This document shows, one piece after another, positions 14,436-44,887 of a stretch of DNA of 64,000 nt (positions are counted from its first letter, which is position 1; each line of letters starts with the position of its first letter). This DNA is from Desulfobacterales bacterium (GTDB lineage: Bacteria; Desulfobacterota; Desulfobacteria; Desulfobacterales; JAHEIW01): assembly GCA_020348305.1 (NCBI GenBank), contig CP070746.1, positions 622,815 to 686,814 of the forward strand, given 5' to 3'. Both the position numbers and the translations under genes were made by a program. The notes beneath the pieces were generated by a model. The model did not search any database. It was not told the DNA's origin and saw only the letters and a list, made by a program, of their open reading frames with translations.

Positions 14436-15338
14436 TCATTCCTGCATGATCTTTTCAATTTCAAAGAACAAATCCTGCTCGCGGATCACACCGACAATTT
14501 CGCCGGACCATTCAACAGTTAACCGTCTTTGATTAAGTTTAATCATGGTATAAGCAGCCTCCATGAGATTGGCATTGGCGTCAATGCTGGACGGGGCTGG
14601 GGACATGACATCTTTGATGCTTTTAGAGGCCAGGCGTGAGGTCTCTCTTTTAAACATGCCGGACCAGAACATCGGTGAATACTGAATACTATCGGCCATC
14701 GAAGGTTTGGGTGCACTCAGGTAGGCCGGCATTATGGTTTTGAGCAAATCGATGATGGCCAGAATGCCGATTATTTTACCGTTGTCGTCATATACCAGAA
14801 GTGAGCGATGGCCTGTCTCCATGATGTTGTTGGTGGATACCTTGGCGGCAAAAGATTCGCGTAGCTTAAACACCGCTTCCCGGATGGTACTGTTCTGATG
14901 TTGAGTCGTATAGTCTTCTAAAGGAATCATCACCTCTCGGACGGTTTTTTCTTCAAAATCCACCTCCACCTTTGAGTGACGGTAAGCGTCAGTGATCTTC
15001 GATGTTAGCAGGTCTATATCACAGGGTTTTGTGAGATAATCGTATGCCCCCTGGTTAAGCGCTTCCTGAGCAGAAGGAAGGGCGCCGTGCCCCGTAAGCA
15101 TGATCACGGGCAAATCGGGCCGGCGCTTTTTAATTTCTTGCAGGGTGTCGTGTCCGTCCATGCCGGGCATCTTAATGTCAAGAACCACGACCTCAGGCTC
15201 CTCTTTAAGCAGTTCAATCGCCTTTTCTCCGCCGGCAGCCAACAGAGTGTCGAATCCTTTTCGATTCAAAATCTTTTTGGTAGTCAAACGAAATTTTTCT
15301 TCATCATCAACCATCAACACTTTAATTTTTTTAGACAT
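14436..15338 (-). CDS. Response regulator with C-terminal CBS pair
   Basis: 300 residues. The receiver (1-120) has VLMVDDEEKF, VVVLDIKMPGMDG with the phospho-Asp, MLTGHG and TKPCDIDLL. After a linker, two CBS domains follow: VREVMIPLEDYT to LVYDDNGKIIGILAIIDLL, and IKDVMSPAPSSI to VEWSGEIVGVIREQDLF. No DNA-binding domain is present, so output may depend on adenine-nucleotide binding. A close architectural relative lies at 27529-28371. It follows the transporter/YIP1 genes and may adjust transport to energy state. Confidence 0.88.
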   Translation of the reverse strand: MSKKIKVLMVDDEEKFRLTTKKILNRKGFDTLLAAGGEKAIELLKEEPEVVVLDIKMPGMDGHDTLQEIKKRRPDLPVIMLTGHGALPSAQEALNQGAYDYLTKPCDIDLLTSKITDAYRHSKVEVDFEEKTVREVMIPLEDYTTQHQNSTIREAVFKLRESFAAKVSTNNIMETGHRSLLVYDDNGKIIGILAIIDLLKTIMPAYLSAPKPSMADSIQYSPMFWSGMFKRETSRLASKSIKDVMSPAPSSIDANANLMEAAYTMIKLNQRRLTVEWSGEIVGVIREQDLFFEIEKIMQE

Positions 15339-16247: not shown

Positions 16248-18101
16248 CTAAAAGCCCGGCAATCCGCCAAATCCCCTCAAAGACCAGTAGATTCCTGTAA
16301 GAAAAAGCACAGCGATATTTGCGATGACAAAAATAGGAATTCCAACCCTGAGGTAATCTTTCGGCTCAAGATAGCCGCTGGCGTATACAATGGCATTTGG
16401 CGGTGTTCCAATGATTAAACAATATGCAAAAGATGATGCCATGGCAGTGGACATGGCCATAAAGGGTAAATAGGTCGTGCCCGGATGAACTAAACCGGCT
16501 ATGTTCAGTGTAATGGGACCTACCGCAGCGGCTGAGGGACCGTCTGCCATGAGATTGGTGATGACTGCGGTTATTCCGTTGGAGATTCCCATTAGTGGGA
16601 GCCCTGAGTCCATACCCAAGGGAGAGAGAAACTCCAGCACCGTTCTGGCCAGCCAATAGGCAGCCCCTGTGCTGTCTAACGTTCGGCCGAAGATAATAGC
16701 ACCGGCGTACAGCCAGACCACACCCCAGTCCACTCTTTCCTGGTAATCTCTCCAGTTGGTAACACCGGCGAACAGATAGGCCACGGCACCGGCGATTGCA
16801 ATCACACCGATACCGAGGCGGACCGGATAAATTCCCAATTCATAAAATGTTTTTTCAGTAAACCAGCCAAATATCATTACAATGAAGATAATGACCGCCC
16901 AGATTTGTTTACGGTTCCAGCCGCCCATTTTGTCGATTTCATTTTTTAGCTGGCTCATGGCCGGCGCCAGGGATGTGATCCGGGGCTTAAATCGCCAGTT
17001 GACGGAAACCCAGGTGATAGGAATCATAATCAAAAGAAACGGGAAGCAATAGGTTACCCACTGAAAATAACCGATGTCCAAACCGAACATATCATTCAGA
17101 TACGTCATCATAATGACATTGCGCGCCCCCCCTGACGGTGCGCCCGGGCCGCCGATGTTGCAGGCCATGGCGATGGTAATCATCAGCAACTTGCCCAGCT
17201 CGGGATCTTCCGGGACCTCCCGTGTCAGGCTGTTCTGATACAGCAGCATGCCGATGGGGAGAAACATGGCAGCCAGAGCATGATCTGAAATAAATGCCGC
17301 CAAGGGGGTGATGATAATAAAGAAAATCAGCGTAATCCATCGTGCACTCGGAATGGCTATCTTTCGGAAGATCATCAGGCAGACGCGCTTGTCCACTCCG
17401 GTTTTTATAAAGGCTGCTGCAAACATCAGGCTGCCCATGATAAACCAGCAGGCATCATCCCAGTAAAGCATGGCCACACTTTTGCGCGAAACAACACCGC
17501 TAAAAACCAACAGCAGTCCAATACAAAATGCAACTCCCGGCAGAGGTATGCATTCCGTTAGAAAACAGAGCACCACAAACACCACCATGGCAATGGAAAC
17601 TTTAATATGCCAGGCACCTTGATCCGCAGTCTTTTTATCTTTAGCAGATAATTCCTCGTATTTGAGCCCATGCTTGCGAAGATCCAGAGACCTTTTCATA
17701 ATATCCAAGTAAGCTTCATCGCTGACCTTTTCTTTTATATGCGCGACGGCTTTTTTGAAGTTTTTTTGATCCAGCGGTATATTGTATTTTTTTGCCCACA
17801 TTAAATCTCTTTTTAAAAAGCCTTTTTTGTGCAATGCCCCCATGCGCATGTTACGCTCCATCATCTGAGCAGTTATAAGCTGCCATTGTTCGACGTCTGA
17901 GCTTGGTTTATTGTACAGCGTCCGAGTGAGATAATTTACGACGGCTTTTGGACCAACTTTGTATTCCGTTCCTACATCCTTCATGCCGTAAGGAGTGGGC
18001 ATCATCAAGATGCCAAAAAGTAGGACAACCGGTAAAATGAATATTTTCCATTCCACATATTTGTCGTATCCGGTAGCTTTTTGCTTCTTTTCGACAGCCA
18101 T
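16248..18101 (-). CDS. DASS-family (SLC13) anion:sodium symporter with large N-terminal insert
   Basis: 617 residues, longer than the usual 450-550. TM1 (about 17-37) is followed by a soluble, Lys-rich helical insert (about 40-165) and then the normal DASS body. Landmarks are FISDHALAAMFLPIGMLL, the SNT-like motifs in IAMACNIGGPGAPSGGARNVIMM and ITNLMADGPSAAAVGP, and IGTPPNAIVYASGYL near the end. The family moves sulfate, dicarboxylates or related anions with sodium. Sulfate or a C4-acid is likely in this organism, but residues do not decide it. The insert is unexplained. Confidence 0.86.
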   Translation of the reverse strand: MAVEKKQKATGYDKYVEWKIFILPVVLLFGILMMPTPYGMKDVGTEYKVGPKAVVNYLTRTLYNKPSSDVEQWQLITAQMMERNMRMGALHKKGFLKRDLMWAKKYNIPLDQKNFKKAVAHIKEKVSDEAYLDIMKRSLDLRKHGLKYEELSAKDKKTADQGAWHIKVSIAMVVFVVLCFLTECIPLPGVAFCIGLLLVFSGVVSRKSVAMLYWDDACWFIMGSLMFAAAFIKTGVDKRVCLMIFRKIAIPSARWITLIFFIIITPLAAFISDHALAAMFLPIGMLLYQNSLTREVPEDPELGKLLMITIAMACNIGGPGAPSGGARNVIMMTYLNDMFGLDIGYFQWVTYCFPFLLIMIPITWVSVNWRFKPRITSLAPAMSQLKNEIDKMGGWNRKQIWAVIIFIVMIFGWFTEKTFYELGIYPVRLGIGVIAIAGAVAYLFAGVTNWRDYQERVDWGVVWLYAGAIIFGRTLDSTGAAYWLARTVLEFLSPLGMDSGLPLMGISNGITAVITNLMADGPSAAAVGPITLNIAGLVHPGTTYLPFMAMSTAMASSFAYCLIIGTPPNAIVYASGYLEPKDYLRVGIPIFVIANIAVLFLTGIYWSLRGFGGLPGF

Positions 18102-18223
18102 TTTCCATTTTTCCTTGAGTTAGCCGTAAAGCGTAAGTTTAAAAGATCATGCTGCATTCTAGTGCTTGATGATTCATTGCCAGATCTTATTTAAGAACAG
18201 ACCGGTCAAGCCTACGTATAAAA

Positions 18224-18679
18224 TCAGGAAGTGCTTTGGTCCCGGATAATTTCCCTCGGAGATTTCATGAACTTGCGGCCTTGGGCCAATCGAATTTTTT
18301 CTTCCAGCCGCTGGCGTTTCTCAAATGCCTCTTCGGCTTTTTGAAGAAGATCATCGACTTCCGTGGGTTTCATTAAATAATCAGTCGCGCCGGACTTCAG
18401 TCCCTCGATTGCGGATTCCACCGTAGCGTGACCTGTCAGCATGATGACTTCTACCAGGGGAAATTGTTTTTTAATTTCTTTCAAGGTAGCGATGCCGTCC
18501 ATACCGGGCATTTTGACATCTAATATGACGATGTGGATGTTCCTTTGCTTCAAAATTTCAAGCGCTTCTGCACCGCTGGCTGCAGTCAATGTCTCATAAC
18601 CTTTCTTTATAAGTAATTTTTTTGTAGTGGAAAGAAACCGTTCTTCATCATCCACCAACATAATCTTCATTTTTTCCAT
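18224..18679 (-). CDS. Response regulator, receiver with short tail
   Basis: 151 residues. The receiver has IMLVDDEERFLSTTKKLL, IVILDVKMPGMDGIATL with the phospho-Asp, MLTGHATVES and MKPTEVDDLLQKA. The tail is a short basic helix (RQRLEEKIRLAQGRKF) and not a known output domain. It lies 49 bases after the Cache kinase gene and is certainly its partner, under the sigma-54 promoter at 20535. It may act on another regulator or through protein contacts. Confidence 0.9.
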   Translation of the reverse strand: MEKMKIMLVDDEERFLSTTKKLLIKKGYETLTAASGAEALEILKQRNIHIVILDVKMPGMDGIATLKEIKKQFPLVEVIMLTGHATVESAIEGLKSGATDYLMKPTEVDDLLQKAEEAFEKRQRLEEKIRLAQGRKFMKSPREIIRDQSTS

Positions 18680-18728
18680 CGTTAACTCCTCTGGTTCGCT
18701 TATTAAACCGCAAAAATGCTGCTAAGCC

Positions 18729-20414
18729 TTATACGGCAGTCGGTATCCGTATGGTGAAGGTTGTTCCAACGTTCTCTTGACTGTCAACCGACATCTCTCC
18801 GCCTATTTTATGGATAATGCCGAAACATACCGAAAGGCCCAAGCCTGTACCTTTTCCTAAAGGCTTGGTTGTAAAAAACGGTGTAAAAACTTTCGGCAGA
18901 TTCTCTGAACGAATACCGATGCCGTTGTCACTGATCCGGATATCAACATGATTGTTTTCGGAGGGCAAGGCCTCGACGATCAGTTCGCCCCCCGAGAAGC
19001 CGTGTCTGGCCACAATTGCGTCGATCGCATTATTTAAGAGATTTATCATTACCTGCTGAAGTTGACTGGGATCGCCGTGAATGGGAGGCAGGCTATCGGA
19101 TATATTTTGTTTCACGCCAATTCCGTGTACACTTGCTTTTTTTGCCACCATGCCGATGATCTCAGGGATAAATGTGCATAGAACAACGTCTTCGGGAACC
19201 GGCTCACTCTTCCTGCCAAATTTAAGAATGGCCTGGGTAATTTCTGCGCAGCGATCCACCTGGTGTTTGATTTGACTGACGGAATCTTCCAGATCGGCTA
19301 CGTCTTCTGATTCTATCAGTTCTCCTTTTGCTTTCAGGTCCGCAAGGATCATGCTGATCAGGGTATGCTCACTCTTCATGATTTGAAGGGGATTGTTGAT
19401 TTCGTGGGCAAATCCGGCAGCCATTTCACCGATTTCTGCCAGCCGGCCGGCGTGGATGAGTTGTTCTCCGAGTTGATTTTTTTCCGCATCCATTCGCTCC
19501 ATGCGCCAGATGATTCTGCCCGTCAAATAAAATGCCACACCGATGATTACCGCACCGCCCGCCAAGCTGATCAAAACGATCAGGTACGAAGCTTTTTGAA
19601 GGGATTTAAAAGCATCCGCTTTTTTCTGGCGAACCACCAGCAACCAGCTCTTATCTTTTAGCCAGGTGGTGGCATAAAGATATTGTTCTCCTTTTGTATC
19701 GGTTCCAAGAAATGTCTTAATGCCGTCATGGGCAGGCCCGTATTTGCGATAATCCGGATCCTTTTGCGTCAAGGAACCGCCGGAACGTCTCTCTGTCTGA
19801 AAAACACCCCCAGCATCCAGCAGGTAAGCTTCGCCGGTTTTGCCGATACTTACGCCTTCTACCAGTTCGTTGAATATCTGAGTGTCAATGGTTGCACGAA
19901 TCACCCACCTTTGCTCGGTATCGCTTTTGGCAATGGCAATAATAAAATGCGGTATCTGGCGGTAACCCAAAAACACATCACTGATGTAATACCCTTCCTT
20001 CATTACTTCACGGAACCAGGATGTGTTTTGGTAATTTCTACCGCTTAGCTGAAAGGGTCCAATATAGGCTACATGTAATCCGTTTTCATTGAAAATACCC
20101 AGATCCACAAATGCATTGGAAACTTTTCGCAAGTGCTCAAACACATTTCGCAGATTTTCAGCCTGACCGAGATAATCAAACGATTCGGAATTCAGAATGT
20201 AATTTAAATCCGCGGTACGCTCGCGAAGAAACGATTCAATCATCTGCCGATGATCTTCCACGATGCGCTTCATGGCGAAGATAGTGCTGGTTTCAAGGGA
20301 AATGGTAAAATAATAGTAACCGATCCCCAGAACCAGAATAAACGGAATGAACGGCACCAGGATCATGCAGGTCAGAATCGTTTTCTTCAACGCGCCATAT
20401 GGGTTTGGTTTCAT
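18729..20414 (-). CDS. Cache-domain sensor histidine kinase
   Basis: 561 residues. TM1 (about 15-37), a periplasmic Cache sensor (38-280; hallmark NGLHVAYIGPFQLSGRNYQNTSWF and PHFIIAIAKSD) and TM2 (about 283-305). The kinase core has [15 protein letters not shown] with the phospho-His, [32 protein letters not shown]. It senses a small periplasmic ligand and phosphorylates the next regulator. It starts a transcript with a sigma-54 promoter and the shared 26-base element. Two relatives lie at 21324 and 25812. Confidence 0.93.
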   Translation of the reverse strand: MKPNPYGALKKTILTCMILVPFIPFILVLGIGYYYFTISLETSTIFAMKRIVEDHRQMIESFLRERTADLNYILNSESFDYLGQAENLRNVFEHLRKVSNAFVDLGIFNENGLHVAYIGPFQLSGRNYQNTSWFREVMKEGYYISDVFLGYRQIPHFIIAIAKSDTEQRWVIRATIDTQIFNELVEGVSIGKTGEAYLLDAGGVFQTERRSGGSLTQKDPDYRKYGPAHDGIKTFLGTDTKGEQYLYATTWLKDKSWLLVVRQKKADAFKSLQKASYLIVLISLAGGAVIIGVAFYLTGRIIWRMERMDAEKNQLGEQLIHAGRLAEIGEMAAGFAHEINNPLQIMKSEHTLISMILADLKAKGELIESEDVADLEDSVSQIKHQVDRCAEITQAILKFGRKSEPVPEDVVLCTFIPEIIGMVAKKASVHGIGVKQNISDSLPPIHGDPSQLQQVMINLLNNAIDAIVARHGFSGGELIVEALPSENNHVDIRISDNGIGIRSENLPKVFTPFFTTKPLGKGTGLGLSVCFGIIHKIGGEMSVDSQENVGTTFTIRIPTAV

Positions 20415-20831: not shown

Positions 20832-21290
20832 TCATTTTTTTTGCGGAAACAAGTCGAAAACATCGTGAGGAGATTCCACCACCTTCTGAATCTTTTCGTG
20901 CATGTCTTTTTTTACTTCGCCGTCCTTTTTCTGCCAGGCGCTTTCAATCTTGGCGACGAGTTCGTCGATTTCGCAAGGCTTGGTTAAATAGTCGTATGCC
21001 CCCAGCTTTATCGCCTCCAGTGCCGTATCAATGGAGCCGTGTCCGGTCAAGATCAACGTCTCCGTGAAAAGACCGAGCTTTTTGATTTCTTTCAATGTTG
21101 TGATACCGTCCATGCCGGGCATTTTGAGGTCTAACACTACAACATCGAAATCTTTTTCTTCCAGGGCTCGAATAGCACTATCACCGCTGTTAACCTCCGT
21201 GACAATATATCCTCGATTGGTCAAAAGTTTTGCCATATTTTTGGTAAATACGACTTCATCATCGACCAATAAAATTTTAGAGCCTATCAT
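20832..21290 (-). CDS. Response regulator, receiver with short tail
   Basis: 152 residues. ILLVDDEVVFTKNMAKLL, VVVLDLKMPGMDGITTL with the phospho-Asp, ILTGHGSIDTALEA and TKPCEIDELVAKIESAW make a full receiver. The tail KKDGEVKKDMHEKIQKVVESP has no known output fold. It follows the Cache kinase at 21324 by 33 bases and is its cognate partner. It resembles the regulator at 18224, so the two kinase/regulator sets are probably duplicates. Confidence 0.9.
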   Translation of the reverse strand: MIGSKILLVDDEVVFTKNMAKLLTNRGYIVTEVNSGDSAIRALEEKDFDVVVLDLKMPGMDGITTLKEIKKLGLFTETLILTGHGSIDTALEAIKLGAYDYLTKPCEIDELVAKIESAWQKKDGEVKKDMHEKIQKVVESPHDVFDLFPQKK

Positions 21291-21323: not shown

Positions 21324-23111
21324 TTAAGAAGCTTCATGCATAGCCATGTCTTTTTCCAATTCCATGGGAGGTCGATTTGGAATAAACAGCACAAATTCTG
21401 TACCTGTGTCTAATTCACTGCGAACCGAAATATTTCCTCCCAGCTGTTTCATAATGCTGTAGCAAATCGATAAGCCTAAACCGGTCCCCTTGCCCACCGA
21501 TTTAGTGGTGAAAAACGGATCAAATATTTTTACCAAATTTTCCGGGGCAATACCCGAACCGCTATCCTCGAATGTAATCGTCACGCCATCGTGGGCTTGA
21601 TCGACTTGGGTTTTGATCCGGATGGAACCATAGGGTTTTGCATCGTGCGCATCGATGGCATTGGTAATAATGTTGAGAAACACCTGCTGGAGCTGGGAGG
21701 GATCCGAAATTAACGCTGGAAGCGCCTGATCCAACTCAACAAAAAATTTAATCCCGCTGGCGCGAGCCTCACGCTCCATAAGCTCAATGATTTCTTTGAT
21801 AAACTGATTAATATCCACCGTTTCGAGAACCGATTCAGTACGACGGGAAAATCTGAGCAAATTTTGGGTGATCCGTTTGCAGCGCTGTACCTGAACATCG
21901 ATTTGGTTCATGGAATCTTTAAATTGTTTTTCAAATTCAGAGCATTGAATCGGATGCCGGGCCGCGGCGTCCAGCAGCAGTTGTCTTTCGGTAAGAACAA
22001 TGGCCAAAGGGTTGTTGATCTCGTGGGCAACACCGGCCGATAATTGTCCGATGGCCGCCAGTTTGCCTGCCTGCATCAGCTGCTTGCCTAACTGATCGGA
22101 CTCATGATCGCGCTTTTTGATCGCAGAAATCATATGCCTCGTACTAAGAATAGCGACCAACAAAATTGTCAGAGCGCTGAGATGAAGAAATATTAATGTG
22201 GCATAATTGGCATGATTGACATCGTTGAAGGCTTCCGAATAATTTTGCTTCACAACCAGCAGCCACTTCGGGTTTTCAAGCCACGTTTCACAGGTGATTT
22301 GACGCGGTCTGCGTTCGTTGGGAAATCCATTCTTTTTTTTCAGGATTTTGACTCGCATCCCTTTGTAGATAGCTTCAATGGGATAGGACGCTGCTTGCAT
22401 GATGTTGCCCTGGAAACGAGGGGTGGTTTGGAAGATGCCCTGACGGTTGAGCAGGTAGACTTCGCCGGTTTTCCCGATGCGAACATTTTCGACCAGAGAG
22501 CGAAACACTTCCGTATTGATGGTCGCTCTCAAAATCCATTTCGAGCCGTTTTCCAGGCGAGATACCGCAATGACAAAATGGGGGTCTTTGCGAAATCCCA
22601 TAAACATGTCACTGATGTAGAGGTCCTTTTCCATAACCTCTTTGAACCAGAAGGCCTGGGAATAATTTTTGCTCATTAAATCATAAGGTCCGATGTAGGC
22701 CAGATGGCGGCCGTCGGCATCGATGATTCCCAGGTCCGTAATGGCCCAATAATCGCGGTTGATCATCTCAAAGATGTCATTCAGATTCGCAATTTGAGTT
22801 AAGTACCCCTTCGAATGGGAATGCGCGATGAGGTGCAGCTTCGAGCTGTGTTCGGCTAAAAACAGCTCAATGATTCTTTTGTGATGTTCTACTTCGGTTC
22901 GCAGGGAATTCATCATACGGTCTTTTGCAAAGCCGGTGTAATAGACGCTAATTCCCCAGCCCACCAGTAACAGGGGGACCAGCGAACACAGAACGGTTAA
23001 CAGCACAAATTTGCGAAACAGGTGTGAATAATACTTCTTTTGCCGTTCTGCCAAACTGGTTTCGTTGGAATCTTTATTGATGGTTTTTTGTGATTCCATT
23101 TTTGTCCTCAT
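21324..23111 (-). CDS. Cache-domain sensor histidine kinase (second of three)
   Basis: 595 residues. TM1 (about 33-55), Cache sensor (about 56-310; [36 protein letters not shown]), TM2 (about 312-332), then the kinase: [15 protein letters not shown] with the phospho-His, [18 protein letters not shown] and [14 protein letters not shown]. It is close to the kinase at 18729 in both sensor and core. It is transcribed after the GNAT-deacetylase gene, 243 bases away, and before its regulator. Own promoter not identified. Confidence 0.93.
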
Positions 23112-23354: not shown

Positions 23355-25790
23355 TTAAGTTAGAGAAGGCCAATACTTCTTATGGATTTCGATCGCCTTT
23401 CTCAATGCCGCCAGTTTCGGAACGGGATTGGCAATAATTTGATTTAACTTTTTACGGTTCAGCGATGATATATTGCAGAGCTCCCGGATGAGATGGAGGC
23501 TACATGCTTGAATTCCTTTGATGCTGTATCCGCCTTCTAAGGCAAATACGATACGACCGTCACAGATCTGTTCCGCAATGTCCACCAGCAACGAGCTCAT
23601 CGATGCATAGCCTTCCGGGGTGGCGCGCATGCCTCCCAGGCGATCATGCAGGTAGAGATCGAATCCGCAGGACACCAGGACCATGCCGGGTTTAAAGTGG
23701 CAGGCCAAAGGCTGTACCAGATAATGAATGATTTCGACAAAGTCCCTGTCGACGTGGCCGTTGGCGAGGGGAACATTGACCGTGAAGCCCTCGCCCTTGC
23801 CGCAGCCGACTTCACTAAAATTTCCGGTTCCCGGAAATCCTGGAAAACGATGCAGGGAGACATACAGGACCTCATCGGTATCGTAAAAAGCAGATTGGGT
23901 GCCGTTGCCATGATGGGCATCGATATCGACGATCATCACCCGTTGCAAACCATAACGATGTTGCAAATAGCGGGCGCCCAGGGCGACATTGTTAAACAGG
24001 CAAAACCCCATAGCCTTGCCCGCTTCGGCATGGTGCCCCGGGGGACGGATGCACGCGAAGCCTCGTTTGGCGCTGCCGGCCCAAATGGCATCTATCAGAC
24101 TGAATACCGACCCGACAGCCATGCGAGCCACCTCATAAGATTTTTCACTGGTTTGCGTGTCCAGATCCAAGGTGCTCAGGGGTTTGCCCGCCGTCTGAGC
24201 GATGCGCTCGATGTGTTCGAAAGTATGAACCCAGGAGAGCTCATCCACCGTAGCCAACCGTGGTTCTATCGGCAGCCATTTTCCTTCCAGCGACGGGTGA
24301 TGAAGTACGGATTGAATGGCTTGGATACGTTTGGCATTTTCCAAATGAAAAATATTTTCCAAGTGACGGGCAAAATCCTCGCTGTAACTTACCAGCAGTG
24401 GCTGAAAACTTGGTTGCGGCGCCTGATACAATCGTACCCATCCCGACGCTGCGGCCAGTTCCAGCAGTTTTCTGGCCTCGGGTAATTTGTCTCGGTGTTT
24501 GAACAGATATTTAAGCGCCGCATCGGCCAGCGTCGGGTGCGTTCGGGATTGCACGCTTAGTTTCAAAAAGGCGAATATTATCTTGCGATGGGCTCTGGTG
24601 GCTTTGGTGCGCGGGTGTTTGCTCAGCCATTTCATCTGTTGCGCAATCAACTTATTGACCGCTTCGAGCAGTTCGGTGCTCGGCTTCCGGCAGTTATTGA
24701 CCATCACCAGAATGCTGCGCAGAAGAAATCCCCTGGGTTGCTTCAAGACATATTCGTAAGGCCTGCGAGGCTGGAAACCGATGGAGCGATAGAAGCGCAA
24801 CGCCCCGATTTCAGCATTGAGGACAACCTCTCCGACTTCCGGGAAATCGCTTTTCCAGAGCAACCATGTTCCGGCCACCAAGAAGGTGCCTACCCCTTTT
24901 ACTTTTTGAGGTCTAAGCGCCTCCGGGATTTGTTCCAGGCCGCCGACGGTCGCCAGATATTTTATTTCCAGGCTTTTTTTTAGATAATGCCGTTTTAGCT
25001 CGAGGAAGATCAATCCGAGAATTTTTCCTTGCACCACACACGCGAACAGCAGATTTTTGGATCGTTGAATTAAACACGTCAATAGAAAGCGGACATGGAA
25101 AAATTCGAGATTCATGGATGCCACCTGCAGCAGGGCATCCATGCAAAAAGGAAAAGGGATAAAGCGTGCCGGTGTGACATATTCGACGACACCTTCAAAT
25201 TGAGTCCTCGGGACGTCCGGCCCATGGTCTTCATGCAGGTACGTCAGCAACGGCCGGTCATCTCGTTTCATGCTTTCCAGAAGAGAGACAAGATCAACAA
25301 GCACCTGAACTCGTCCTCGGTGCTTGGATATCGGTGCAGCTCCTGTTTGTCTGTCGCGTTTCAGGCCGGCACCTTTGCCGTTCCTGGTTTCCAAACGCTT
25401 AAGGTCCTTGCGTACCCGAGCGATGGCATAATCGATCTCATGGCCGACCATCAATCTCAGACCGGCCTGGTGAATTTGGCCGGCGGCCCCGCGGTAATCG
25501 ACGGGATCGGAGCCGTTCTGCAGTTCCTGCTTTTTGAACAGCTCCCCGTATTTGATGAGCAGCTGCTGTTCGAGCGCGACGGTACCTTCCTGGAAATACA
25601 GATATTTTTTGAAAAAAACGGGTTGACCCTTGAAAAGAAAAAAAAGATCGTCGACCCCATCCCCGGTATCGGTTTTTTCCGACACACCGATCTCGCCCGC
25701 CCCGAGCATGGTATCCAGGGAATACCCGATTGCGGGATCGCGTTTTGCAATTTCTTCGATGGCTTGTTTGAGGTTTTCCCGTTTTATCAT
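23355..25790 (-). CDS. Fusion of GNAT acetyltransferase-like domain and HDAC-type deacetylase
   Basis: 811 residues. A mixed N-terminal region (1-225) is followed by a GNAT-like domain (about 225-350): GKILGLIFLELKR, KVKGVGTFLVAGTWLLW in the position of the acetyl-CoA loop (x-x-G-x-G), and NAEIGALRFYRSIGFQPRRP, a classic GNAT end. After a helical linker comes an HDAC/AcuC-type deacetylase (about 519-775). It has RPPGHHAEAG with the His pair near 586-587, VDIDAHHGNGT with two zinc ligands, SCGFD with the third, and EGGY with the catalytic Tyr, so it looks active. It lies between two Cache kinase genes, 21 bases after the first. It probably adds and removes acetyl groups on the same target. The GNAT call is the less certain part. 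Confidence 0.8.
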   Translation of the reverse strand: MIKRENLKQAIEEIAKRDPAIGYSLDTMLGAGEIGVSEKTDTGDGVDDLFFLFKGQPVFFKKYLYFQEGTVALEQQLLIKYGELFKKQELQNGSDPVDYRGAAGQIHQAGLRLMVGHEIDYAIARVRKDLKRLETRNGKGAGLKRDRQTGAAPISKHRGRVQVLVDLVSLLESMKRDDRPLLTYLHEDHGPDVPRTQFEGVVEYVTPARFIPFPFCMDALLQVASMNLEFFHVRFLLTCLIQRSKNLLFACVVQGKILGLIFLELKRHYLKKSLEIKYLATVGGLEQIPEALRPQKVKGVGTFLVAGTWLLWKSDFPEVGEVVLNAEIGALRFYRSIGFQPRRPYEYVLKQPRGFLLRSILVMVNNCRKPSTELLEAVNKLIAQQMKWLSKHPRTKATRAHRKIIFAFLKLSVQSRTHPTLADAALKYLFKHRDKLPEARKLLELAAASGWVRLYQAPQPSFQPLLVSYSEDFARHLENIFHLENAKRIQAIQSVLHHPSLEGKWLPIEPRLATVDELSWVHTFEHIERIAQTAGKPLSTLDLDTQTSEKSYEVARMAVGSVFSLIDAIWAGSAKRGFACIRPPGHHAEAGKAMGFCLFNNVALGARYLQHRYGLQRVMIVDIDAHHGNGTQSAFYDTDEVLYVSLHRFPGFPGTGNFSEVGCGKGEGFTVNVPLANGHVDRDFVEIIHYLVQPLACHFKPGMVLVSCGFDLYLHDRLGGMRATPEGYASMSSLLVDIAEQICDGRIVFALEGGYSIKGIQACSLHLIRELCNISSLNRKKLNQIIANPVPKLAALRKAIEIHKKYWPSLT

Positions 25791-25811: not shown

Positions 25812-27485
25812 TTATGTGCCGCTCTCAGCCGGACGGTTGAATTGAAGCGGGAGTTTGACGACAAAGCTGGCGCCCCCTTCCGGCAGATTGTGTGCGGCAA
25901 TCCGCGCGCCTAACCTTTCCAGGATGTCGGCGCAGATCGGCAACCCCAAACCCGTTCCACCGGGTTTGGTGGTAAAAAGGGGATCGAAGATTTTGTCAAA
26001 ATGGGCTGCGGCAATCCCCGGGCCGGTATCGGCGACCGCAGCCACCACGCCGTCGGATTCTCGCCGAGTCGTCAACGTGATCTCGCCGTTGGTCTGAATG
26101 GCGGCCACGGCATTCAGAATCAGATTTTGAAAGACCTGGCGCAGTTCGGAAGGATCGCTGCGAATGGCGGGCAGGGAATCTTCATAGTTGCGCACCACCC
26201 GAATGTTGTTGAAGCGCAGTTCTTTGTCCATAAATTCGATCAAATCATCGAGCACTTCGGTGACATTCAGCGCTTTGATGATCGGCTCGGTGCTGCGGGT
26301 GAACCGCAGGAATTTGTCGATGGACGTGCGGCTGCGGGCCGCTTCCGATCGAAGCTGCGAGAGGCTCTCGGAAATCCTCTCCACTGGATTGCTGCGACAT
26401 AGGTCCTGGATGCTCATTGCAGCCGCATCGATATTTGTCAGGGCGTCTTTGATTTCCCGAAAAAATCCAAGGGCCAATTCCATGGCCGACGCCAGCCGAT
26501 TGGACTGGCGCAGCTGGCGGTCCAGAAACCGAATGCTGCGGCGTTTGACTTCCAGGCGGGACACTAGATGGTTGGTGGTCAGCAGCACGGTCATCACGAT
26601 CAGGATGGCTGCCAGTACGAAGACCCAGATGCCGATCATACGAATGCGCCGCAGCTCGGCGAAGGCATTTTTGCGATCCATCTGGACGGCACAGAGCCAG
26701 GGGACGTTTTCAAGCCAGACGGTCATCAAAAGATGATCGTCTTGTTCTTGAAACGTTACCCCTTCAAACGGTTTGAGATTCGTAAACCGGGACGGTTCCA
26801 TTAACTGCCCGGCCGAACGGGGTCTGCTCTGGTAGACACCTCGGCGATTTACAAAATAGGCGTCGGCGTTGCTTTTTTCGGCGATGGCGGAGATCATGCG
26901 GTGAAAATAATTCGTGTCGATGGTGGCGCGCAGAAACCAAACGCCTTCGCTGCTTGCTGTTTTGACGGCGATGACGAAGTGCGGGGTATTGCGGTGTCCC
27001 AAAAAGACATCGCTGATGTATACGCCGCGGGCCATCACGGTTTCAAACCAGGCGGCTTCCCTGTAATTTTTCTTTAAAAGATCGTAGGGCCCCACATAAG
27101 CCAAGTGACGGCCCTGATCATCGATGACGCCCAGGTCCGTATAGCAGGGCAATTGCTGCTGCAGGGAATGAAAGACGTTTTGCAGGGTCTGCGAATCGCG
27201 CAAGCCGGGCAACCCGATATTTTTGGATATCAACTTCAGATCCATGGTCCGTTCAGCGAGAAATTGATCGACCGCGTTCTTGAGATCGAGCGCATCCACC
27301 CGCAGAGTTGCAACGGTCTTTTGTTTGATAACCGAGGTCAGATAGGAATACATTCCGCCGCCGATGATGATCAGCGGCACAAATGCCGCGGCCAGCAGCG
27401 TTACGACCACCGTATTCCATGTCCGGCGGAAATAGGGAAAATCTCCGGAACGGCCCTGGGCCGTCGTATTTAGGATTTCATCCAT
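25812..27485 (-). CDS. Cache-domain kinase homologue lacking the phospho-His
   Basis: 557 residues with the same layout as the other two: TM1 (about 24-48), Cache (QGRHLAYVGPYDLLKKNYREAAWF, PHFVIAVKTAS), TM2 (about 282-303). The H-box reads ELALGFFREIKDALT, with Arg near residue 343 where its relatives have His ([16 protein letters not shown]). The ATPase boxes are intact: RQVFQNLILNAVAA, ADTGPGI, GGTGLGL. It cannot autophosphorylate in the normal way, so it may act as a ligand-sensing partner in a heterodimer. The gene follows the receiver-CBS gene by 43 bases and precedes the fusion gene. Confidence 0.88.
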   Translation of the reverse strand: MDEILNTTAQGRSGDFPYFRRTWNTVVVTLLAAAFVPLIIIGGGMYSYLTSVIKQKTVATLRVDALDLKNAVDQFLAERTMDLKLISKNIGLPGLRDSQTLQNVFHSLQQQLPCYTDLGVIDDQGRHLAYVGPYDLLKKNYREAAWFETVMARGVYISDVFLGHRNTPHFVIAVKTASSEGVWFLRATIDTNYFHRMISAIAEKSNADAYFVNRRGVYQSRPRSAGQLMEPSRFTNLKPFEGVTFQEQDDHLLMTVWLENVPWLCAVQMDRKNAFAELRRIRMIGIWVFVLAAILIVMTVLLTTNHLVSRLEVKRRSIRFLDRQLRQSNRLASAMELALGFFREIKDALTNIDAAAMSIQDLCRSNPVERISESLSQLRSEAARSRTSIDKFLRFTRSTEPIIKALNVTEVLDDLIEFMDKELRFNNIRVVRNYEDSLPAIRSDPSELRQVFQNLILNAVAAIQTNGEITLTTRRESDGVVAAVADTGPGIAAAHFDKIFDPLFTTKPGGTGLGLPICADILERLGARIAAHNLPEGGASFVVKLPLQFNRPAESGT

Positions 27486-27528: not shown

Positions 27529-28371
27529 CTATTCGATTTCATGCTCCAGGTGTAGAAAGATATCCTGTAACCTGACAACCCCAACTACCTTTCCCTGATC
27601 GATAACCGGCATGGTTCGAAACTTGTTCGTGATCATCTGGTGGGCGACATCCGAGAGGAGTTCATCCGATCGGCAATAAAGAATCCGGCTGTGCATTACG
27701 TGCCGCAATCTTTTGGGAGGAAGCCAATCGGGATTTTCACGCAATGCCGTCCAGGTTAACGAAAATTCCGGGCATGTTTCCCGGGCGGCCTCAATCAAAT
27801 CTCGCTTGGTGATGAATCCCAGCAGCCTGTCTTCACTGTCCAGGATATACGCCGTTTCTGCCGCCCGCGCACCGTTTTCCTGTTTCAAAACATCCAGTGC
27901 ATCTGCCAGCCGACCATCCGGATCCAACCGCTCAAAGGTGTAGCAGATGAGTTCTTCGACTTTGTTCCGCGGCCACAGCACCGGATGCCGCTTGATCGTT
28001 TCAACAGCATAGGCTTCTTGAATCTTTGCGGTCAAATCTTCAATGTCGCAGGGTTTCATGAGATAATCGAAAGCGCCCTCCCGGATGGCCTGAATCCCGG
28101 ATTTTAATGTCGCATGACCGGTCAGCATAATCACCTCGGTTGCCGGTGCGAGTTGCTTGATTCTCTTCAATGCATTTATTCCGTCCATGCCGGGCATTTT
28201 CACATCCATTACGATCACATCAAAGCCTTCCGTATTTTGAACGGCATCCACGGCCTGAAAGCCGTCGAAGGCCGTGCTCATCTTGAATCCCCTGCTTTCT
28301 AAAAGTTTGCCCAGATTCAGGACAAATTGCTCCTCGTCATCGACCAGCAGGACATGGATGATTGCGCTCAA
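27529..28371 (-). CDS. Response regulator with C-terminal CBS pair
   Basis: 280 residues. The receiver (VLLVDDEEQFVLNLGKLL, VIVMDVKMPGMDGINAL with the phospho-Asp, MKPCDIEDL) is followed by two CBS domains: VEELICYTFERLDPDG to DSEDRLLGFITKRDLI, and LRHVMHSRILYCRSDE to VIDQGKVVGVVRLQDIF. It lacks DNA-binding output and resembles the regulator at 14436. It is the first gene of the cluster with the degenerate kinase and the GNAT-deacetylase, which links phosphorylation, adenylate sensing and acetylation. Confidence 0.88.
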   Translation of the reverse strand: MSAIIHVLLVDDEEQFVLNLGKLLESRGFKMSTAFDGFQAVDAVQNTEGFDVIVMDVKMPGMDGINALKRIKQLAPATEVIMLTGHATLKSGIQAIREGAFDYLMKPCDIEDLTAKIQEAYAVETIKRHPVLWPRNKVEELICYTFERLDPDGRLADALDVLKQENGARAAETAYILDSEDRLLGFITKRDLIEAARETCPEFSLTWTALRENPDWLPPKRLRHVMHSRILYCRSDELLSDVAHQMITNKFRTMPVIDQGKVVGVVRLQDIFLHLEHEIE

Positions 28372-29830: not shown

Positions 29831-30364
29831 TCAATAGGACGCGTAAAAAACAATGAAGGTAAATATCACCGAAATCATCCAGACCACATGGCCGACAGTG
29901 CCTTTCTTAACCGCATGAAAGTGTGCCTCAGCCTGCTTGTGGCCTTCGCCGCATAGATAGCGGCGTATTCGTTTACTGTTCTTTCTGCGGGTCAACGTTA
30001 TGCGACCGACCGGCTCACCGCAGACATAACCTCGAGTATCGATTTTGCTGCAGGTCAGGCGTTTCCCGCGCAAGAAACTGGCTAGATTGTAGATCCAGTT
30101 CCAGGTTAAAGATAATAGCGTTAGAAACACAACGATGATCATAATATGCGCTTTGGAGACGCCCAAAGCTGCAAGATGTTCTCCCAATTGCGAAGGGTTC
30201 AGGGGCCCGTCGACCCGGCCGAATAAACCCAGGTAATACAAAAAGAAAGAGATCCCCATGACAATCATGGTAAGGCCGAAATGCCATAACCGCTGTTGAC
30301 CGTAACTGTGACGATACAGCTCCACCCCGGATTTCGGCGGCGCAGGCGTGTGGTGAAATTTCAT
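29831..30364 (-). CDS. Hypothetical membrane protein with Cys-rich loop
   Basis: 177 residues, three hydrophobic helices (about 28-48, 73-95, 155-175) and a cytosolic loop with three Cys: LTCSKIDTRGYVCGEPVGR and RRYLCGEGHKQAEAHFHA. The Cys/His pattern could bind a metal. AAGGAGG precedes ATG 30364. It follows the TSUP gene by about 110 bases on the same strand and may be an accessory subunit. I do not recognise the family. Confidence 0.65.
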   Translation of the reverse strand: MKFHHTPAPPKSGVELYRHSYGQQRLWHFGLTMIVMGISFFLYYLGLFGRVDGPLNPSQLGEHLAALGVSKAHIMIIVVFLTLLSLTWNWIYNLASFLRGKRLTCSKIDTRGYVCGEPVGRITLTRRKNSKRIRRYLCGEGHKQAEAHFHAVKKGTVGHVVWMISVIFTFIVFYASY

Positions 30365-30475: not shown

Positions 30476-31516
30476 TCAGCCACTCAGTTTCGCGATGATG
30501 TCGGGTATGACCTTGTAAAAGGTATAGCCGGCGAGAATACAGCAGTAAACCGGAACGATAAACTTCCAGGCCTTTTCGGGAAAAACCCGGGTCGTGTAGG
30601 GTGCGGCCACGGCAGTGAACATGGTCGCCAGCATCATCGATGGCAGCAGCAGGTAGTCGATGGTCACCCCGCCGGTCAGCAGTGCCAGCCAGACCAGAAC
30701 CGAAAAGGTGCTGACGGTGCCCTCCGAGATGGCCGTGACGGCCAGCATGCTTTTGACCGGCACGCCGGAAATCAGGCCGCCGACGGTCACCACCGGGCCG
30801 TAGCCGCCGCCTCCCACGCCTTTGTTAAAGCCTGCCAGGGCCGCAAAGCCGAACATCATCTTGGGTTTGTAGGGGCGATCTTTTCTGGATTGGTAAAGCG
30901 ATACCAGACCCATCATCACCAGCAGAACGGCCACATAGAGCTTGATCCAAATCTTGGCCACTTTGAACACGGCATAGATGGCGGTAATGGAAAAAGCTAC
31001 CGCCGCACAGCCGGTTACGGCGATGATCAGCCACAGCTTTATGGTTTCCGACATGGGTTTGAACTTCCATTCAACGTTTTCAAACTCACGGTGCAGAAAG
31101 GCTCCCACAAGACCCGCCACGCCTTGTTGGATCATTACCACCGGCACAATTTGCTTGGGGTTAAATCCCATCAGCAGCAGCAGCGGAGTGATGGCCGTTC
31201 CAAATCCCATCCCGGCCGAAGCATCCATGAACTCGAAAAACATGGCGGACAATACCACGCTCCAGATGATACTCCATTCATTGGTTCCCACCCAGCCTCT
31301 GGCTTCGACAAACGGCGAAGCAATCCGCTTGGTGGCCTCAAACGGGTTGCCGGCCAGCCAGCACCCCAGCAAAAATACCGCGAAAAGGGCTAAAAATCCC
31401 CATGCTGCCGCGACTAGCTGTCTTTTTTCCGGGAGAAACCGTGCCCACATGGAGGATTTCTTCACCTCCAGTTCCCGGGCCACCTCCCAACCTTTGGTTC
31501 TAGCGTCGTCTGACAT
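30476..31516 (-). CDS. TSUP-family anion exporter (TauE/SafE)
   Basis: 346 residues from ATG 31516, chosen because AAGGAGG lies 9 bases upstream; the frame also opens earlier to 31576. TSUP hallmarks are FEFMDASAGMGFGTAITPLLLL and GFNKGVGGGGYGPVVTVGGLISG, the two paired repeats of the family, with about eight helices. TSUP proteins export or import sulfite, sulfoacetate and similar anions. The next gene is the Cys-loop membrane protein. A near-match sigma-54 site lies about 110 bases upstream. Confidence 0.86.
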   Translation of the reverse strand: MSDDARTKGWEVARELEVKKSSMWARFLPEKRQLVAAAWGFLALFAVFLLGCWLAGNPFEATKRIASPFVEARGWVGTNEWSIIWSVVLSAMFFEFMDASAGMGFGTAITPLLLLMGFNPKQIVPVVMIQQGVAGLVGAFLHREFENVEWKFKPMSETIKLWLIIAVTGCAAVAFSITAIYAVFKVAKIWIKLYVAVLLVMMGLVSLYQSRKDRPYKPKMMFGFAALAGFNKGVGGGGYGPVVTVGGLISGVPVKSMLAVTAISEGTVSTFSVLVWLALLTGGVTIDYLLLPSMMLATMFTAVAAPYTTRVFPEKAWKFIVPVYCCILAGYTFYKVIPDIIAKLSG

Positions 31517-32303
31517 AATAGGTGCCTCCTTAATTGAATTAAATGGTTTGCATGCTGCGATAGTATGTATATTCAAAAGCGAATCCGGTCCGGAATATCG
31601 ACTGGCCGTTTATGCCCAATTCCTTAATCAAGATATATGCCAACCAGACAAATGCGGATAAGGTACTGGCGTGAAAAATCATAACCTGCCGAAACGACGA
31701 TAAATTCTATGTGAGTTGGTCTTCTTCTTCATCGGCAAAAAAGGAACATGCGACAAATCAGAGCAAAACCTGTCCACAGACAAGTGACAGCCCCATGAAA
31801 CACTGAAATTTTTAGAGGACACATTTTGGTGTAACGACAACTATGGGGAGGGGGACGACGACCAGAAACGGTGCCTTTCGAATATCCGGCAGCTTCAGAC
31901 TATCGGGTTGCTGCTGAAAACCATCGGGAACGTGCGTAAAATCACTCAATCTAAAATTGCGTAATATTTCAGAAGATAAGATAAACATTCGATATGAATT
32001 CTAGAGTCCTGAAGCTAGTGAACCGATTTTTGTTAGATCCGATTTGAGGATGGTTATCAATATTTCTTTATTTCTGGCATACACCTTGCTTTAACTCGAG
32101 GTAAAGGTTGGCAAGGAGCGGCGGCTGAAACTGACATATTTTTTTTACTGACATATTTGTCGGATATCTGGCTTACCTGATCGCGAAATCTTAGTACCTG
32201 AATCTTGCATGAAAATTGATGAAAAGGTTTACTTTACGTGTACACAGCGGGTTTATCTAAAATAACAGAACGATATTAGTTTACCTATAGGGTATATCGG
32301 ACG
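31517..32303. other. Long non-coding region between TSUP and CBS genes
   Basis: No gene is visible. It contains a near-match sigma-54 site at 31628-31644 (GG-N10-GA) and, at about 32130-32165, two direct copies of CTGACATATTT that could be an operator. No typical sigma-70 promoter or terminator stands out. Confidence 0.5.
31628..31644 (-). promoter_or_regulatory. Near-match sigma-54 promoter for the TSUP gene
   Basis: Minus strand TTGGCATATATCTTGA has a perfect -24 box, but the -12 box is GA rather than GC. It closely resembles the promoter at 20535 (TTGGCATATAGCTTGC). It may be weak or decayed. No 26-base element was found upstream. Confidence 0.35.
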
Positions 32304-32651: not shown

Positions 32652-34058
32652 TTAAGTCGAGCCGTTGGCTTTGAAATCATCGGCTCTGATACCGGCTTCT
32701 TTCATGATACGATGCAGATATTGTCTTTGAATACCGGCCGCCTCGGCTGCTCTACTGATGTTTCCGGCACTTCTGGAAAGAAGTGATTGGATATAAAGAC
32801 GATGAAAAATCTGAGTCATCTTTTCTTTCGCTTCCTTAAAGCACAATTGCGTGATGTCTTCATGAAATTCGGGATAAATCGGATATTCTTCGTTATCCAA
32901 ATGAAGATCTCTGACTTCTAAGGTATTTGTTCTGCAGAAAATGACACCTCGCTCAATAATATTTTCCAACTCTCTGACGTTGCCGGGAAATTCCTGGGAT
33001 ATAAGAATTTGCATGGCTTCCGGTGAGATATGCTCAATGCTTTTTTGATTTAAACGTGCATATTTTTCTAAGAAATGGTAGCTCAACAAGGGAATATCCT
33101 GCTTTCGTTCTTTGAGAGAAGGCACATCAAATCGGATGACGTTCAGACGGTAATAGAGATCTTCGCGGAAACGATCTTCCTTGATATCGCTTTTCAAATC
33201 ATGATTGGTGGCGGCGATGAAACGGAGATCGGCATATTTGGTGGTTACCCCGCCGACCGGCTTATATTCGCCTTCCTGCAGAAGCCGCAGCAGTTTGGTT
33301 TGCATCTGAAAGCTAAGATCGCCGATCTCATCTAAAAAAAGGGTGCCGCCATCGGCTTCATCAACCAATCCCTTTTTGTCCTGCCAAGCTCCGGTGAAGG
33401 CTCCTTTCACATGACCGAAAAGCTCGCTTTCCAGCACCTGTTCCGGAATTGCCGTGCAGTTTACGGTAATTAATTTTTCGGAATGCCGCAAACTGTGTTG
33501 ATGAATGGCCTTGGCGACCAATTCTTTGCCGGTACCGCTGGGGCCGGTGATTAAAACCGTTCCCATGGTGGGAGCAACCTGGCGGATCCGATCGAAGACA
33601 TCCTGCATCACCGGAGTTGACCCCACCAGGGACGCAAAACCGTTTCTTTCCGCCAGTGCTTGACGCAAGCAGCGGTTCTCATTGACAATCGCTTGCCACT
33701 TCATGGCTTTATCCAGTGTCAATAGAACGCGTTCCCGGCGGAATGGTTTGGTAATGTAATCTTGGGCGCCTTTTTGAATGGCTTCCACCGCATTTTCGAT
33801 GGTAGCATAGGCGGTTAAGATAATTACTGAAATTTCCGGTCTGATTTTTTTACACTCCTCCAGAAGTTGGATGCCATCCATTTTTGGCATTTTTAAATCG
33901 GTGATCACAACATCAAAATGGCGCTGCTTTACTAATTCGAGAGCCTCTTGAGGATCGCTCTCGGCAACCAATTTGTGCTGTGTTTCTTCAGAGATAATGC
34001 GTTTCAATAGAACCAGCATATCTTCTTGGTCATCGACAATTAAAATTTTGCCGCTCAT
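32652..34058 (-). CDS. NtrC-type sigma-54 activator (receiver-AAA+-Fis)
   Basis: 468 residues. Receiver: ILIVDDQEDMLVLLK, VVITDLKMPKMDG with the phospho-Asp. AAA+ domain (about 143-375): Walker A GPSGTGKE, the sigma-54-contacting GAFTGA in KGAFTGAWQDKKG, Walker B GGTLFLDEIGD, then RELENIIERGVIF. A Fis-type helix-turn-helix closes the chain (GNISRAAEAAGIQRQYLHRIM). It is the last gene of an operon with a binding protein, a receiver and a kinase, whose promoter carries sigma-54 boxes and the shared 26-base element. It is therefore my leading candidate for the factor that binds that element. Confidence 0.95.
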   Translation of the reverse strand: MSGKILIVDDQEDMLVLLKRIISEETQHKLVAESDPQEALELVKQRHFDVVITDLKMPKMDGIQLLEECKKIRPEISVIILTAYATIENAVEAIQKGAQDYITKPFRRERVLLTLDKAMKWQAIVNENRCLRQALAERNGFASLVGSTPVMQDVFDRIRQVAPTMGTVLITGPSGTGKELVAKAIHQHSLRHSEKLITVNCTAIPEQVLESELFGHVKGAFTGAWQDKKGLVDEADGGTLFLDEIGDLSFQMQTKLLRLLQEGEYKPVGGVTTKYADLRFIAATNHDLKSDIKEDRFREDLYYRLNVIRFDVPSLKERKQDIPLLSYHFLEKYARLNQKSIEHISPEAMQILISQEFPGNVRELENIIERGVIFCRTNTLEVRDLHLDNEEYPIYPEFHEDITQLCFKEAKEKMTQIFHRLYIQSLLSRSAGNISRAAEAAGIQRQYLHRIMKEAGIRADDFKANGST

Positions 34059-34069
34059 CCGTTGCTCCC

Positions 34070-36202
34070 CTATACCGTGACAAGTTTTACCGTAAACGTC
34101 GTACCGGACGGTTTGCCTGGATTATCGCCACACTGACTGAAGCAGTCGATGGTACCTCCATACTTGGCAATAATTCCATAGCTAACGAATAACCCCAAAC
34201 CGGTTCCTTCTCCCTCCGGTTTGGTCGTAAAGAATGGTTCAAAGATGTGATCGATATCTTCCGGTTTTATGCCGATGCCGGTGTCCCGAAATTGAACGAT
34301 GGTTTTTCGGTGTTTTTTTTTGAAATAGGTACGAATGATCAAGGCCCCGCCCTCTTTCATCGCCGCCACCGCATTGGTGATCAGGTTTAAGAACACTTGC
34401 TGGAGCTGGCGTGAATCCCCTTCAACCATTGGCAATCCTGGAGTTAACTGCATCACGAGGTTAATGTGGTTCATTTCCAAAACATGTCTGACAATCTTGA
34501 TGGTTTCTTCCAGAGACGTATTTACATCGGCATATTGGTGGCTGTCTTCTTCAACGCGGGTAAAGCTCAAAAGATTTTCGATCACCTCCTTGCAATGAAG
34601 TCCCTGCCGTTCAATGGCTTTTAGATCTTCATAATCTTGAGAACCCGTTTCGGTTTTGCGGAGTAAAATATCGGTAAATCCAAGAATAACTCCCAGCGGA
34701 TTGTTGACTTCATGGGCTACACCGGCTGCCAGGGTGCCCAGAGAGGCCAGCTTTTCGGCATTTACCAACTGTCTTTCCAGGTTCTTGTTCTCGGTAATGT
34801 CCCTGGCGATACATAAAACAGAACTGACTTCTCCGCGATCATTTTTTATGGGCATAAAATTTACGCTGATCCAAATGGGATGCTCTTCAAACTGGATTTT
34901 AAATTCTTCACGGACGCTTTTCCCATGATGATACACCAGATCCGTGAGCTGATGTTGTCGTCGGGCCAGTGGTTCCGAGAATAAACTCGAAAGATGTTTG
35001 CCGATGAAGTCCTGCGGATGTCCTCCGAAGAAATTTGCCGTAAAGCTGTTCATGGATTGAAATTGGCCTTGACTGTCAACTGTAAAAATAAAGTCTTCAG
35101 CACTTTCCACCAACGATCGGTATTTTTCTTCTGATTTTTTGAGCTCCTCAGTGCGTTGCTGTACCTTTTTTTCCAGGAGGCGAGACCATCGTATTTCAAA
35201 AACCAGTATCGTCGCGCTACCGAAAAGAATGAATACAATTACCAGTCCCTGTAATAGAAATAATTTCAAAGAGCCTTTGCGCAGCGCACCTTCGATTTCC
35301 GATACAGGAGCCACTACCGCCACGGACCAACTTTGCGGCGGTTCCTCGGAGACGACTACCGGGCAATAAGCAATCAACTTCTTTATTTGACCGGTAATCC
35401 CCCGGTGCCAGCCCGAGTAATACCAGCCCGTGCCTTGTTGGCCTTTGAGCATCCTTTCCCTTTGAATGAAGTTGATCTTCGCAAACGGCACATCCGGGAA
35501 TTTTTCTTCCCGCGCGGTAAAGGCATTTTTGCCGATGAAGTTGGCGTCCGGGTGAAAGAGGAAGTAGCCGTTTTGCTCGATCATCCAGACATAACCGCTA
35601 CTGCCTGAACGGATTTCTTTTAAGAATGGCGCCAGAAACCAGGAGGCGTTGATATGGAAAATTAGATATTTGAATTTCTCATCCGGCAGCGGAGCCGCCA
35701 GATAAAAGGCAAAGCCCCATGTTTTGATTTGCGGTGGAGACACCCAAACCGATTCATTCTCCGGAATTGTTGGCAGCTGAGTGGGATAAGGACTGCCCTC
35801 TAAAATCGGTTTTACGGACCAGCGCCGATGGGGCATGAACGTATGGAGCCTGCGGTTGGAAATATCAACACTTTCAATTTTCCAAACCCCGCTTTCCAAA
35901 ACCCGAAAAAAACTTTGCTGGATACGTTCATTTTGGTCTTCCAAATCCAGAGGCCTTGCGGAAATATCCTCCGCCAATAAAGCAAATTCTCTTTTTAATA
36001 ATTTGATCTCCCTTTCGATGCGCTGTTTAACCATGCGGGCGATGACCAGCTGTTCCTGATTAAACTGGTCTGCAACGATCTTTTTCATCTCCTTTATTGC
36101 CGACAATCCAAGCACCGCGCCGGCCAACAAAAAAAAGACAGCTATAAATATGATGAACATAACGACGGGTTTTTCAATTTTCGGTCTGATGGTATCCTTC
36201 AT
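34070..36202 (-). CDS. Membrane Cache-PAS sensor histidine kinase
   Basis: 710 residues. TM1 (about 14-34), a long periplasmic Cache region (35-310; LIFHINASWFLAPFLKEIRSGSSGYVWMIEQNGYF), TM2 (about 318-338), a PAS domain (about 360-480; IKNDRGEVSSVLCIARDITE), and the kinase: AAGVAHEVNNPLGVI with the phospho-His, FLNLITNAVAAM, DTGIGI, FTTKPEGEGTGLGL. It starts 12 bases before the activator gene and is its likely partner. The receiver at 36213 is also beside it, so a phosphorelay is possible. The periplasmic domain may contact the secreted binding protein encoded first in the operon. Confidence 0.93.
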   Translation of the reverse strand: MKDTIRPKIEKPVVMFIIFIAVFFLLAGAVLGLSAIKEMKKIVADQFNQEQLVIARMVKQRIEREIKLLKREFALLAEDISARPLDLEDQNERIQQSFFRVLESGVWKIESVDISNRRLHTFMPHRRWSVKPILEGSPYPTQLPTIPENESVWVSPPQIKTWGFAFYLAAPLPDEKFKYLIFHINASWFLAPFLKEIRSGSSGYVWMIEQNGYFLFHPDANFIGKNAFTAREEKFPDVPFAKINFIQRERMLKGQQGTGWYYSGWHRGITGQIKKLIAYCPVVVSEEPPQSWSVAVVAPVSEIEGALRKGSLKLFLLQGLVIVFILFGSATILVFEIRWSRLLEKKVQQRTEELKKSEEKYRSLVESAEDFIFTVDSQGQFQSMNSFTANFFGGHPQDFIGKHLSSLFSEPLARRQHQLTDLVYHHGKSVREEFKIQFEEHPIWISVNFMPIKNDRGEVSSVLCIARDITENKNLERQLVNAEKLASLGTLAAGVAHEVNNPLGVILGFTDILLRKTETGSQDYEDLKAIERQGLHCKEVIENLLSFTRVEEDSHQYADVNTSLEETIKIVRHVLEMNHINLVMQLTPGLPMVEGDSRQLQQVFLNLITNAVAAMKEGGALIIRTYFKKKHRKTIVQFRDTGIGIKPEDIDHIFEPFFTTKPEGEGTGLGLFVSYGIIAKYGGTIDCFSQCGDNPGKPSGTTFTVKLVTV

Positions 36203-37451: not shown

Positions 37452-37536
37452 AATATTAGCCTCCCACCGGGAGTGTTTTTACACGTATGTTATGCATCTA
37501 AATGTAAACTAAATTGGGTGACTTACAATTTACTTT

Positions 37537-37553
37537 AGCAAGGTATGTGCCAA
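37537..37553 (-). promoter_or_regulatory. Sigma-54 promoter of the PstS-like/kinase/activator operon
   Basis: Minus strand TTGGCACATACCTTGC is almost the exact sigma-54 consensus (TGGCAC, TTGC, GG-N10-GC). It lies about 87 bases before ATG 37451. It implies the activator gene is in a sigma-54-dependent operon, that is, autoregulated. Confidence 0.88.
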
Positions 37554-37642
37554 AATATGGTGCATGGTTCTTGCTTTAATGTCTCTAAAACAAAAGAAAT
37601 ATTTTGTTGAAGCGAAAAATTCCTCAGAAATTAAAGAATCGG

Positions 37643-37668
37643 TGTCAGTTTTTTTTGCATTCTGTAAA
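37643..37668. promoter_or_regulatory. Shared 26-base upstream element (copy 2)
   Basis: TGTC at 37643, a T-run, GCA, three bases and TGTAAA ending at 37668. The centre lies about 110 bases from the -24 GG. The core has G in place of A in the first half (TTTGCA). Confidence 0.7.
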
Positions 37669-44882: not shown

Positions 44883-44887
44883 CCAGA

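Follow-up and report, generated by a model that had tools for sequence, protein, structure and literature searches.

The acuABC genes of Bacillus encode a GNAT acetyltransferase (AcuA), a CBS-ACT protein (AcuB) and a zinc deacetylase of the HDAC family (AcuC). AcuB binds and inhibits AcuC, and it also binds adenine nucleotides or Ap4A (PMC13039410, PMC13121692); its contact with AcuC is made through the ACT domain (PMC13039410). AcuC itself belongs to the class I cluster (cluster 2) of HDACs (PMC11532494). Our analysis of a 64,000-nucleotide stretch of a Desulfobacterales genome (the window) has shown a gene cluster that likewise encodes a GNAT domain, a CBS protein and a zinc deacetylase together. 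In contrast to acuABC, the GNAT and HDAC domains are fused or encoded by directly adjacent genes, the CBS pair is carried by a receiver protein that has no ACT domain, sensor kinases are part of the cluster, and the HDAC, judged by its best PDB matches, is nearest to HDAC6-type sequences.

Three other described groups resemble parts of this locus. Class II bacterial zinc deacylases (HdaH-like, cluster 1 of PMC11532494) have a similarly complete HDAC active site; however, the members discussed there are single-domain proteins, whereas here the deacetylase is preceded by an N-terminal half of about 470 residues that contains the GNAT domain. Pat-type acetyltransferases (Streptomyces lividans Pat, E. 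coli PatZ and the ACT-GNAT protein AAPatA) also embed a GNAT domain in a larger, regulated protein, and their folds are similar by VIA (4nxy, Z 12.9; 9isq, Z 11.8), but the partner domain here is a deacetylase and not a ligand-binding or pseudo-synthetase domain. RocA (PMC7028121) and a ChrS variant (PMC9491836) are kinase-like sensors without a working phospho-acceptor site, as is one sensor of this cluster, and they act on other kinases or signalling systems. A search of the open-access literature with narrow phrases returned no prior report of a GNAT-HDAC fusion. The fusion protein is organized as follows:

23355-25790, minus strand: GNAT-HDAC fusion protein, an open reading frame of 811 amino acids
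25371-25790, minus strand: N-terminal domain (residues 1-140), conserved among family members
24738-25217, minus strand: GNAT domain (residues 192-351), with motif A G299-x-G301, FYxxxGF at 333-339 and E275
24441-24737, minus strand: helical stretch joining GNAT and HDAC (residues 352-450), from the predicted structure
23358-24383, minus strand: zinc deacetylase (HDAC) domain (residues 470-811), from Pfam and conserved active-site residues

The 811-residue frame is real and aligns from end to end with its fused homologues at 41-61% identity. The preliminary description, which had noted a chain of this length with a GNAT-like domain and an HDAC domain, is borne out, and both domains have conserved catalytic motifs. 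That description had missed two segments, the N-terminal domain (about 1-140) and the helical stretch (about 352-450). The former matched no known domain, although a known fold there is possible. The model of the full-length protein has a pTM of only 0.57, so the placement of the two halves relative to each other is uncertain.

The HDAC half is the more easily recognized. Pfam Hist_deacetyl (PF00850) matches residues 482-770 with an E-value of 1.1e-91, and the zinc and catalytic residues H586/H587, D624, H626, D711 and Y755, said from the outset to be complete, are indeed present in the window protein and in all homologues with sequence at these positions. Its best PDB sequence matches are HDAC6, HDAH and relatives, with HDAC6 the closest. 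By family and residues, this domain is thus predicted to be a classical zinc-dependent deacetylase of class II type. A gatekeeper leucine goes with lysine deacetylases and a glutamate with HDAC10. The corresponding position (718, assigned by motif) is leucine in all 24 covering rows, and the HDAC10-like glutamate is absent from them.

In contrast to the HDAC half, the GNAT domain is only weakly indicated by sequence. The Pfam GNAT match in the window protein is below threshold (residues 297-341, E 0.049), and among 26 homologues PF13673 is matched by 13 (best E 1.3e-4) and PF13508 by nine. Nevertheless, G299, G301, A306, W312, E327, A330, Y334, G338 and F339 are invariant in all 26, the two glycines constituting the motif A signature (x-x-G-x-G/A) that follows beta4. 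In 24 of the 26, the strand preceding motif A retains E275, which is presumably the equivalent of the Gcn5 general base. An AlphaFold2 model built from a 26-row alignment (pLDDT 87.1, pTM 0.85) shows the GNAT order of strands and helices from residue 198 to 349. The alignments used for structure prediction left out L134/L008 (one contig, in which the first part of the N-terminal half lies in another frame and bases are unread) and L132 (unread bases). By VIA, residues 192-369 align to RimJ (Z 13.1) and residues 192-351 to the GNAT domain of S. lividans Pat (4nxy, Z 12.9); Foldseek matches had modest E-values, the best being 3.6e-4. The model therefore places a GNAT fold upstream of the HDAC at residues 192-369, a slightly longer range than the 225-350 first suggested. 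A comparison of the predicted structure with GNAT folds had been proposed in the preliminary description, with the lack of an acetyl-CoA pocket to count against an acetyltransferase. The model has GNAT topology, with Z of about 13 to both RimJ and Pat, and its fold and motif A give no sign of such a lack.

The relatives that bear names are Desulfobacteraceae and Desulfobacterales. In a sample of 291 genomes of the order, 29 had a match to the N-terminal half of the fusion protein (the first 456 residues), a count that includes a 35-residue fragment (G174), and a profile search across the phylum found it in three of 395 sampled genomes, the window's own among them. In the fetched regions, the two halves are fused at 21 loci, namely the window and 20 others (contig ends truncate L131 and L137, and the reading frame of L134 is broken). 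At six further loci (L120, L122, L126, L130, L132 and L133) they are neighbouring genes, separated by 3 nt in L120 and overlapping by 4 nt in L126. The N-terminal half of L133 is itself in two frames. On the tree of N-terminal halves, two changes are needed to account for the six split forms, and a single origin for them is possible. The occurrence of the same halves as one protein or as adjacent genes is a Rosetta-stone link between GNAT and HDAC. In an HDAC tree that included 35 stand-alone enzymes, the fused and split HDACs form one set apart from these with support of 100/100, and no homologue of the N-terminal half was found at E 1e-3 in the stand-alone HDAC loci (L010-L087). Long N-terminal frames in four other loci (L045, L056, L061 and L069) were considered as further HDAC fusions, but by eye they give the impression of non-coding stop-to-stop frames. 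One genome (G021) carries two copies of the N-terminal half, one beside an HDAC (L133) and one without an HDAC in the 20 kb fetched (L119); at the latter, the upstream kinase is present only as short pieces.

The fusion gene lies in a cluster of signalling genes:

20832-21290, minus strand: single-domain response regulator (Pfam)
21324-23111, minus strand: downstream dCache histidine kinase, HEINNP box intact
25812-27485, minus strand: upstream dCache histidine-kinase homologue without the phospho-acceptor His (pseudokinase), ending 21 nt before the fusion gene
27529-28371, minus strand: receiver-CBS protein (RR-CBS), receiver Asp kept
29831-30364, minus strand: p177, a small protein without clear family that serves as a cluster marker
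30476-31576, minus strand: TauE/SafE-family transporter, conserved in the cluster
32652-36202, minus strand: sigma-54 response regulator (32652-34058) and PAS/dCache kinase (34070-36202)

The recurring order among relatives is TauE/SafE transporter, p177, RR-CBS, dCache histidine kinase, GNAT-HDAC, dCache histidine kinase and single-domain response regulator. Pairs similar to the sigma-54 regulator and PAS/dCache kinase are found near the cluster in many relatives. Among the 291 genomes sampled, 26 of the 29 that have the N-terminal half also have p177, as against none of the 262 that lack it (Fisher p 4e-34, with genomes treated as independent, which they are not); in the three exceptions, either the contig that carries the gene is short or the gene stands at its end. 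Orthologues of the single-domain regulator are 68-83% identical, generally the highest values in the cluster. Some members vary: no RR-CBS was found in L127-L129, and no upstream kinase in L144. In L126 the downstream kinase and regulator are on the opposite strand and so may be a separate unit. The receiver Asp of RR-CBS is kept in the aligned rows. The proposal that this kinase cluster links acetylation to two-component signalling thus stands as far as the genes are concerned, the cluster being real, kept across relatives and stably linked to the fusion gene; functional coupling would be a further step.

The window also encodes a second receiver-CBS protein (14436-15338) that can be aligned with the one in the cluster. 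At 16248-20414 are a DASS/SLC13 anion symporter, a further receiver and a third dCache kinase, whose His box is intact. Two PstS-like periplasmic binding proteins lie upstream of the cluster (36645-38606), and three open reading frames at 42639-49739 have NuoF-like and molybdopterin-oxidoreductase domains.

The two dCache kinases flanking the fusion gene share one architecture but differ at the phospho-acceptor. In the window's upstream protein the His-box position reads GFFREIKDAL, with Arg in place of His, and in all 25 upstream-class rows this residue is R, Q, L, S or E. Since two contigs were each fetched twice (L008/L134 and L009/L138), these represent 23 distinct loci, or 24 with the window, and the His in the DHp helix is present in none of the 24 distinct clear orthologues. 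In contrast, downstream-class kinases, a class that also holds some other kinases of the regions, have it in 36 of 36 alignable rows. Two upstream genes scored too low for their class: L139, with Ala, and L125, a degenerate copy that keeps the His but has lost the ATP-binding motifs. L124, L127 and L128 likewise have changes in these motifs. In contrast to RocA and the ChrS variant, the absence of His here is a lasting feature shared by orthologues that go with an acetylation gene.

We tentatively favor, at somewhat below an even chance, a reversible-acetylation module wired to two-component genes, in which a two-sided enzyme has its output set by its neighbours. The GNAT domain would acetylate protein lysines from acetyl-CoA and the zinc deacetylase would reverse this, whether the halves are fused or come from two adjacent genes. 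The net output would be set by products of the neighbouring genes. The dCache sensor, a membrane protein of histidine-kinase ancestry that lacks the phospho-acceptor His, may relay a periplasmic signal by protein contact; physical coupling to the fusion protein is the simplest guess, because the genes are directly adjacent and in several loci (L124, L137, L139, L140 and L143) overlap by 4 nt. RR-CBS may contribute inputs from phosphorylation and from adenine nucleotides, in a way comparable to the restraint of AcuC by AcuB in Bacillus. As Pfam finds only a receiver and CBS in RR-CBS and no ACT domain, the AcuB parallel is loose and concerns possible working rather than membership. By analogy, our best reading is that the cluster may work like AcuA/AcuB/AcuC without being that family. 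Writer-like and eraser-like domains do occur in one chain, as first described; the "self-contained" part of the proposed switch did not hold up equally well, since the fusion is kept beside a His-less kinase and usually RR-CBS, and one of the domains could be regulatory.

The possibility of a regulatory domain leads to an alternative that we regard as rather unlikely, in which the HDAC is the sole enzyme and the GNAT-like domain senses acetyl-CoA, or another acyl-CoA, and acts allosterically on the deacetylase. If both halves of a chain acted on the same substrate, writing and erasing would form a futile cycle in the absence of regulation, a point that counts against a two-sided enzyme; moreover, the GNAT sequence is divergent enough to fall below the Pfam cut-off while all covering rows have an intact HDAC site. 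Nevertheless, CoA binding alone would not obviously need E275, which nearly all homologues retain. The substrate might also be a small acetylated amine (a polyamine or similar amide) interconverted by the fusion protein, and not protein lysine. Leu718 in place of the HDAC10 Glu, HDAC6 as the closest solved sequence and protein acetyltransferases among the near matches of the GNAT model (a fold does not fix the substrate) all make this quite improbable, even though the cluster contains a transporter and both superfamilies have small-molecule members such as polyamine deacetylases (PMC11532494).

A different role can be envisioned for the pseudokinase, namely that it tunes the downstream kinase through mixed dimers, with the acetylation enzyme as a separate output that perhaps acts on receivers. 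The common dCache-kinase architecture would suit mixed dimers, and pseudo-histidine-kinases that modulate other kinases or systems have been described (RocA, PMC7028121; ChrS variant, PMC9491836). However, it is the fusion gene that the pseudokinase gene directly precedes, with the overlaps noted above, and the downstream kinase can sit on the opposite strand (L126); we consider mixed dimers unlikely.

With regard to acetyl-CoA synthetases, proposed early on as possible targets, no gene for one was found among the neighbours scanned with Pfam (part of the window's open reading frames). A partial AMP-binding_C match occurs at window positions 408-572, in a 104-residue frame near the window edge. 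The genome as a whole has 37 AMP-binding_C matches, and SIR2 matches occur at three sites, which makes further control of acetylation likely. Two additional HDAC genes in the genome (L003, 4089899-4090699, and L004, 5882218-5882790, of G000:C1) are about 2 kb or less from AMP-binding_C matches and thus near acyl-CoA synthetase-like genes.

The balance between lysine acetylation and deacetylation in bacteria is only now being worked out, as in the AcuB papers of 2026. It is conceivable, though doubtful, that in these bacteria a membrane sensor of histidine-kinase descent has given up phosphotransfer and drives the fused acetyltransferase-deacetylase, external signals thereby being recorded as protein acetylation. 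A conserved cluster whose writer and eraser share a chain, and whose sensor kinases include a conserved pseudokinase, would allow control of acetylation by a signal to be tested directly.
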